Origin: Intestinibacillus massiliensis
Lineage (GTDB): Bacteria > Bacillota > Clostridia > Oscillospirales > Butyricicoccaceae
Reading direction: 5' to 3'
Assembly (NCBI RefSeq): GCF_900155735.1
Contig: NZ_LT707059.1
Span: 284,222 to 325,837 of the forward strand
Length of the DNA stretch: 41,616 nt
Shown here: positions 4,530 to 4,787 of the stretch, piece after piece
Layout of the letters: each line of letters starts with the position of its first letter
Numbering within the stretch: the first letter of the stretch is position 1
Notes under the pieces: model-generated
Database searches by the model: none
Told to the model about the DNA's origin: nothing
Seen by the model: only the letters and a program-made list of their open reading frames with translations
Position numbers and translations under genes: made by a program

Positions 4530-4787
4530 ATGGATGCAAAGGCATTTGTAGCAGGTCTGTCCGCCCTCGGCGCCGGTATGGCAATGATCGCCGGCCTCGG
4601 CCCTGGTATTGGTGAAGGTTACTGCGCCGGCCAGGCGTGCTCTGCGATCGGCCGCCAGCCGGAAGCGCAGTCCGATATTACCCGTACGATGATCCTTGGT
4701 ATTGCAATGGCCGAATCCACCGGTATTTACGCGCTGGTTATCGCGCTGATCCTGCTGTTTGCCAACCCGTTTGTCAATCTGTTCTAA
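4530..4787 (+). CDS. atpE: F0F1 ATP synthase subunit c, sodium-type two-carboxylate site
   Basis: An 85-aa hairpin protein that forms the rotor ring. Two transmembrane helices (about 5-33 and 50-78) flank the polar loop RQPEAQ. The ion carboxylate is Glu62 in AESTGIY. The Ser63, Thr64 and Tyr67 that follow are the known sodium ligand signature, seen in Ilyobacter tartaricus. In helix 1 the position of the Ilyobacter Gln32 ligand is Glu29 (GIGEGY), exactly 33 residues before Glu62. This is the two-carboxylate arrangement described for Fusobacterium nucleatum. ATG start behind a strong AGGAGG about ten bases upstream. Sodium coupling is therefore likely but not proven by sequence alone. Confidence 0.96.

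Follow-up and report, generated by a model that had tools for sequence, protein, structure and literature searches.

A two-carboxylate c subunit of predicted sodium type in the F1Fo ATP synthase of Intestinibacillus massiliensis, and the distribution of its ion site in sampled Oscillospirales

Introduction

Which ion drives an ATP synthase whose c subunit carries two carboxylates in its ion site, and how widespread is such a rotor? The question is raised by atpE of Intestinibacillus massiliensis, which lies in a 41,616-nucleotide stretch of DNA (the window). An original prediction, made from the sequence, described its product as a sodium-type c subunit with two carboxylates, Glu29 and Glu62.

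The two-carboxylate sodium site was described in 2013 from crystal structures of the c11 ring of Fusobacterium nucleatum (Schulz et al., PMC3692424). According to that paper both glutamates bind Na+, and the added one, Glu32, was interpreted as carrying its proton in the crystals (pH 5.3 and 8.7) as well as in calculations. Calculations and vesicle measurements reported there indicate that the proton on the added glutamate is constitutively bound and not transported, and the residue is expected to behave like Gln or Asn. The Na+ motif given in a 2016 paper on Rnf (PMC4715464) has Q/E in the first helix and E/D plus S/T in the second. The signature used here for an Na+-type F ring is Gln or Glu in helix 1, a helix-2 carboxylate accompanied by Ser/Thr, and a Tyr at the fifth residue past that carboxylate. 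Proton rings with two carboxylates would be expected to have these without the Ser/Thr/Tyr set of Na+ rings.

What is new in the present work is the distribution of the Glu site, the site itself having been published already. Among the literature searched, no title on an Na+ ATP synthase in Butyricicoccaceae or Oscillospirales was found, a weak negative as most subscription journals lay outside the search; one paper (PMC12449052) does contain all three of the terms Oscillospirales, Rnf and ATP synthase.

Results

The open reading frame of atpE encodes an F-type ATP synthase c subunit of 85 residues. Its product scored 64.7 bits against Pfam ATP-synt_C (cut-off 24) and 65.6 bits against NCBIfam TIGR01260 (cut-off 43.95), and an AGGAGG stands 8 bases 5' of the ATG. 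All eight subunits of the enzyme, the c subunit among them, are encoded in order in one operon (Table 1), and each scored above a curated cut-off of at least one of the two databases, Pfam and NCBIfam. Subunit a did so in Pfam only, reaching 90.1 bits against NCBIfam TIGR01131, below its cut-off of 102.6; it contains the segment SMSFRHFGN, which includes residue 166 of the subunit, the probable stator arginine. The start of atpA was placed at an inner ATG of an open reading frame listed from 5874.

Table 1. Features of the ATP synthase operon in the window, and fused c subunits in genomes of the class sample. Fn, F. nucleatum; It, Ilyobacter tartaricus.
Feature	Position	Strand	Evidence
AtpZ-like small membrane protein	3097..3354	+	Pfam PF09527 (ATPase_gene1), 40.2 bits, cut-off 26.6; no NCBIfam match
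AtpI-like protein	3351..3734	+	Pfam PF03899 (ATP synthase I chain), 26.5 bits, cut-off 25.1; no NCBIfam match
atpB, subunit a	3738..4460	+	Pfam PF00119, 159.3 bits, cut-off 33.9
AGGAGG, likely ribosome-binding site of atpE	4516..4521	+	sequence
atpE, subunit c, two-carboxylate, predicted Na+-type	4530..4787	+	ORF translation, alignment, Pfam
Glu29 codon (GAA), opposite Fn Glu32 and It Gln32	4614..4616	+	alignment
Codons of Glu62 (conserved carboxylate), Ser63, Thr64	4713..4721	+	sequence
Tyr67 codon, opposite Fn Tyr70	4728..4730	+	alignment
atpF, subunit b	4833..5330	+	NCBIfam TIGR01144, 102.9 bits, cut-off 65.5
atpH, subunit delta	5339..5881	+	NCBIfam TIGR01145, 123.2 bits, cut-off 57.5
atpA, subunit alpha	5898..7403	+	NCBIfam TIGR00962, 818.6 bits; start context
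atpG, subunit gamma	7446..8309	+	NCBIfam TIGR01146, 312.3 bits, cut-off 194.45
atpD, subunit beta	8355..9752	+	NCBIfam TIGR01039, 851 bits; start context
atpC, subunit epsilon	9756..10157	+	NCBIfam TIGR01216, 99.8 bits, cut-off 67.25
Six-hairpin fused c	L289 1624-3237 (G141)		
Four-hairpin fused c	L290 1477-2526 (G238)		
Four-hairpin fused c	L291 1536-2585 (G272)		
Three-hairpin fused c	L292 1876-2781 (G197)		
Three-hairpin fused c	L293 1540-2352 (G099)		

The translation contains Glu29, Glu62, Ser63, Thr64 and Tyr67, and every residue of the AESTGIY motif had been correctly named beforehand. The product was aligned by phmmer with three chains of solved structure, from F. nucleatum (3zk1), I. 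tartaricus (1yce) and Acetobacterium woodii c2 (4bem_A). The alignments are ungapped, with Glu29 opposite Glu32, Gln32 and Gln29, respectively, and residues 62-67 (ESTGIY) opposite ESTGIY in the first two and ETTGIY in the third. Glu29 thus aligns with an ion-site position, opposite the sodium ligand Gln32 of Ilyobacter as had been proposed, and the identical 33-residue spacing to Glu62 follows from the lack of gaps. The protein has the complete signature of an Na+-type F ring (E29, E62, S63, T64, Y67), in the F. nucleatum form, ie with Glu at the Gln32 position and equal spacing to the helix-2 Glu. Chance or misalignment as the source of Glu29 is ruled out by the ungapped alignments together with the conservation described below.

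An Na+ site is likely because all the side-chain ligands given for F. nucleatum in PMC3692424 are identical at the aligned positions. It had been argued that the two-carboxylate layout implies an Na+-coupled synthase. This holds insofar as the Na+-type residues align and the genome encodes Na+ pumps, but two carboxylates alone also occur in H+ enzymes: Streptococcus pneumoniae and M. tuberculosis are named in PMC3692424 as H+-driven with a double-carboxylate motif, so the pair by itself does not signify Na+. The prediction of Na+ is carried by Ser63, Thr64 and Tyr67, whose presence also tells against an H+ ring of that kind.

The conservation of Glu29 was followed at three taxonomic depths. 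A protein search of the family Butyricicoccaceae gave 72 places in 64 of the 81 genomes, and position 29 in the 70 places read (all but two weak matches, from G029 and G025) was Glu in 58, Ile in 6, Met in 3, Gln in 1 and Val in 1, with 1 cut by a contig end. Amongst the 59 family c subunits with Glu or Gln at that position, 58 have Glu29 and all have Glu62. Thr64 is replaced by Ser in two pooled rows, which are a single G010 gene fetched twice. In 185 pooled Glu-type c sequences, a set that includes near-copies and some genes fetched twice, Glu29 is encoded 128 times by GAA and 57 times by GAG; the residue is therefore held while its codon drifts.

For the order and the class a short motif was used which demands Glu or Gln at position 29. 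It matched in 72 of 237 Oscillospirales genomes, a count silent on other residues there, a limit from which only the family-level protein search is free. Of the matching genomes 46 lie outside the family. A c subunit was recovered from 39 of these, in ten further families, with Glu in 38 cases and Gln in 1; another 2 were read and contained none, and 5 were not fetched. The class sample, equally silent on other residues, matched in 54 of 293 genomes, with a Glu c subunit in 3 (all of this order) and a Gln c subunit in 34, after 10 genomes with non-c matches only had been dropped and leaving uncounted 7 that were not fetched (six with a Gln-like and one with a Glu-like motif). Thirteen fetched class matches, from 13 genomes, were rejected as c subunits; seven of these are proteins of 387-400 residues sharing only GPGxGEG, and one (L174) had no open frame with the motif printed. 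Amongst the 80 of 189 named loci most like the query, 74 have Glu and 6 Gln. Across the Oscillospirales sampled, Glu29 is the common state.

A quick maximum-likelihood tree was built from joined c and a subunits with the position-29 column removed; its 116 rows (82 Glu, 34 Gln) remained after near-copies and Ile rows had been dropped. The row nearest to the window is a contig titled Intestinibacillus massiliensis (L023), a species placed in Butyricicoccaceae by NCBI; G001, the other of the two genomes covered by a search of the genus, has sequence in common with L023 and a c gene at matching coordinates. Only 4 changes between Glu and Gln are required on the tree, compared with a mean of 29.7 after shuffling, and at least 3 are forced by starred branches. 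One Gln row (L133, genome G055) is nested inside starred Glu clades and retains E62, S63, T64 and Y67. This fits Glu29 acting as a neutral ligand, although the change is not isolated, residues 60 and 61 of G055 being Leu and Ser in place of Met and Ala. Three divergent Glu rows (L258, L162 and L165) sit among Gln rows. Their Glu29-type motifs are GPALGEGN in L162, GPAIGEGN in L165 and GPGIGEGN in L258, and the L162 and L165 matches each have one TAA counted inside, near the C-terminal end. We claim neither a direction for the deep changes nor a single origin of Glu, because the deep branches are weak and some rows are long. Residue 60 is Met, Leu, Ile, Val or Cys with Glu29 and Val or Leu with Gln29; co-evolution of the two positions was considered and rejected, since the pattern follows clades.

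A search for Na+ pumps elsewhere in the genome was positive. Consecutive rnfC, D, G, E, A and B genes are present (L131 5630-10806), each above its TIGR cut-off, and two proteins match OAD_beta, the beta subunit of sodium-pumping decarboxylases, above cut-off. One of the latter (on L129) has a carboxyltransferase subunit nearby, and also a short open reading frame with, by eye, a biotin-carrier-like sequence beside a masked stretch. Amongst 61 family genomes searched, OAD_beta matches were found in 59 and NQR2_RnfD_RnfE matches in all 61. A sodium circuit is plausible because a complete Rnf and two decarboxylase beta subunits are encoded in the same genome as the synthase. The Rnf genes alone are no proof of an Na+ gradient, because the Rnf of C. 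ljungdahlii and that of Vibrio cholerae did not depend on Na+ (PMC4715464). What the sequences themselves show is the operon, the set of pump genes, and the residues with their ungapped alignment and conservation.

Other ion-transport genes were also seen. The window encodes a sodium:dicarboxylate symporter family protein (17766-19037, minus strand) and two P-type cation ATPase open reading frames (31619-34393, plus strand; 40579-41610, minus strand), the second of which matches C-terminal parts only and probably runs past the window end. The same genome has V/A-type ATPase genes as well as the F-type enzyme (G000 contig C28, L132). Their c-subunit match is in an open reading frame containing a masked stretch, and the subunit I match has a strong E-value but is below the NCBIfam cut-offs. 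With these genes present, the F-type enzyme may account for only a share of ATP synthesis.

The genome search found no second F-type c gene in Intestinibacillus massiliensis. Six other genomes of the family do have one, of proton-type appearance with Ile29 and AEATAIY (L160 and L163; also L161, L164, L166 and L167). A Glu29 c subunit was read as well in five of these genomes; in the remaining one, G070, the contig ends within the Na+-type gene, short of position 29. In the two genomes read at length the second operon has all eight subunits, and lineages with such a c subunit may have a separate enzyme for protons.

In several genomes of the class sample F-type c subunits are fused in frame, giving two, three, four or six hairpins (Table 1); L180-L182 are further three-hairpin examples. 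The ion sites of the six-hairpin protein L289 alternate E-Q-E-Q-E-Q, so that half are without a carboxylate. Brandt and Müller reportedly wrote on hybrid rotors in 2015. The c1 subunits of A. woodii and C. aceticum are described as two-hairpin fusions (PMC7911925).

Discussion

The best joint explanation of these observations, which we hold to be very probably correct, is that atpE encodes the c subunit of an Na+-coupled F1Fo synthase in which Glu29 is permanently protonated and Gln-like, and that the gradient is supplied by Rnf and the decarboxylases. Na+ binding, the permanently protonated glutamate and the ring structure are modelled on the F. nucleatum work. In the assembled ring one Na+ would be bound at each site between neighbouring subunits, its putative ligands being Glu62, Ser63 and Glu29 together with the main-chain carbonyl of residue 60, and the site would be locked by Tyr67 and a water bound to Thr64. 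Glu29 would remain protonated throughout rotation, acting like the Gln of other Na+ rings, and only Na+ would cross the membrane. Rnf and the biotin-dependent decarboxylases encoded in the same genome would generate the Na+ gradient. The extra proton, which the original prediction placed, as a possibility, next to the sodium, is not expected to be a second coupling ion because it is constitutively bound and not transported in F. nucleatum (PMC3692424).

That the rotor is instead promiscuous, or mainly proton-driven in the gut, with the site often holding two protons and the enzyme changing its coupling ion, Na+ or H+, according to pH and salt, we regard as improbable. The F. nucleatum ring is described as intrinsically H+-selective, like all rings characterised until 2013, its coupling being set by the Na+/H+ ratio of the habitat, and Methanosarcina acetivorans, with two glutamates predicted in the site, uses both ions (PMC3692424). 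However, Ser63, Thr64 and Tyr67 fully match Na+ rings, and the second, proton-looking c subunit in six family genomes perhaps belongs to a separate proton enzyme. A role for Glu29 as a pH sensor, deprotonating at high pH to shut the rotor, is very improbable. Such a regulatory role was proposed from E. coli mutants and is cited in the Discussion of PMC3692424, but the same source reads Glu32 as protonated at both crystal pH values and in calculations, and a natural Gln variant exists within the clade.

A site structurally known from one pathogen is thereby extended to an apparently ordinary rotor in sampled Oscillospirales, gut anaerobes that include Agathobaculum and Butyricicoccus. If the enzyme is Na+-coupled, their ATP synthesis would be powered by a sodium gradient that Rnf and decarboxylases set up. 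A bolder suggestion, to which we assign a rather low likelihood, is that rotors with two carboxylates are ancestral and general in the order, that selection has maintained them and Gln has only rarely replaced Glu, and that they work differently from Gln rings, for example through a tuned Na+/H+ selectivity under the acidic pH of the gut. Were this so, the order would offer natural Glu/Gln pairs for probing the role of the second carboxylate. Natural pairs bearing on that role are given by the Gln variant nested among Glu rows and by those relatives that have a second, proton-like operon.

The layout had been described as known from F. nucleatum, which is correct for the 2013 structures, but it is not peculiar to Fusobacterium, being common in the Oscillospirales sampled and with Ruminococcus albus named, along with T. 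maritima, E. siraeum, Butyrivibrio proteoclasticus and others, in the Figure S1 legend of PMC3692424. T. maritima has an Na+-dependent ATP synthase with a Km of 1.2 mM that works with an Na+ Rnf (PMC7414866); it is brought in here through that legend. The c subunits on three R. albus contigs (L046, L047 and L059) are 67-72% identical to the window protein and, as in atpE, have Glu29, Glu62, Ser63, Thr64 and Tyr67. R. albus and Intestinibacillus massiliensis are Eubacteriales in the NCBI taxonomy and presumably both fall within the GTDB order Oscillospirales.

Of the characterised rings, the c11 ring of F. nucleatum (PDB 3ZK1, 3ZK2; Schulz et al. 2013) is identical at 57 of 82 positions without gaps, and counterparts of its Glu32, Glu65, Ser66, Thr67 and Tyr70 are all present; the Na+ pump genes of Intestinibacillus massiliensis are a further F. 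nucleatum-like trait. The two proteins differ in the residues past the helix-1 glycine motif and at the backbone-ligand position, which is Val in F. nucleatum and Met here. The Na+ c11 ring of I. tartaricus (PDB 1YCE, 2WGM), with 55 of 82 identical, has every ligand but one in common, the single difference being its Gln32 in place of Glu29. In the c2/c1 hybrid ring of A. woodii (PDB 4BEM) the c2 subunit is identical at 53 of 80 positions and has an Na+ site, but with Gln29 and Thr63 in place of Glu29 and Ser63, and A. woodii has a second, two-hairpin c1 subunit, whereas atpE is the sole F-type c gene of its genome.
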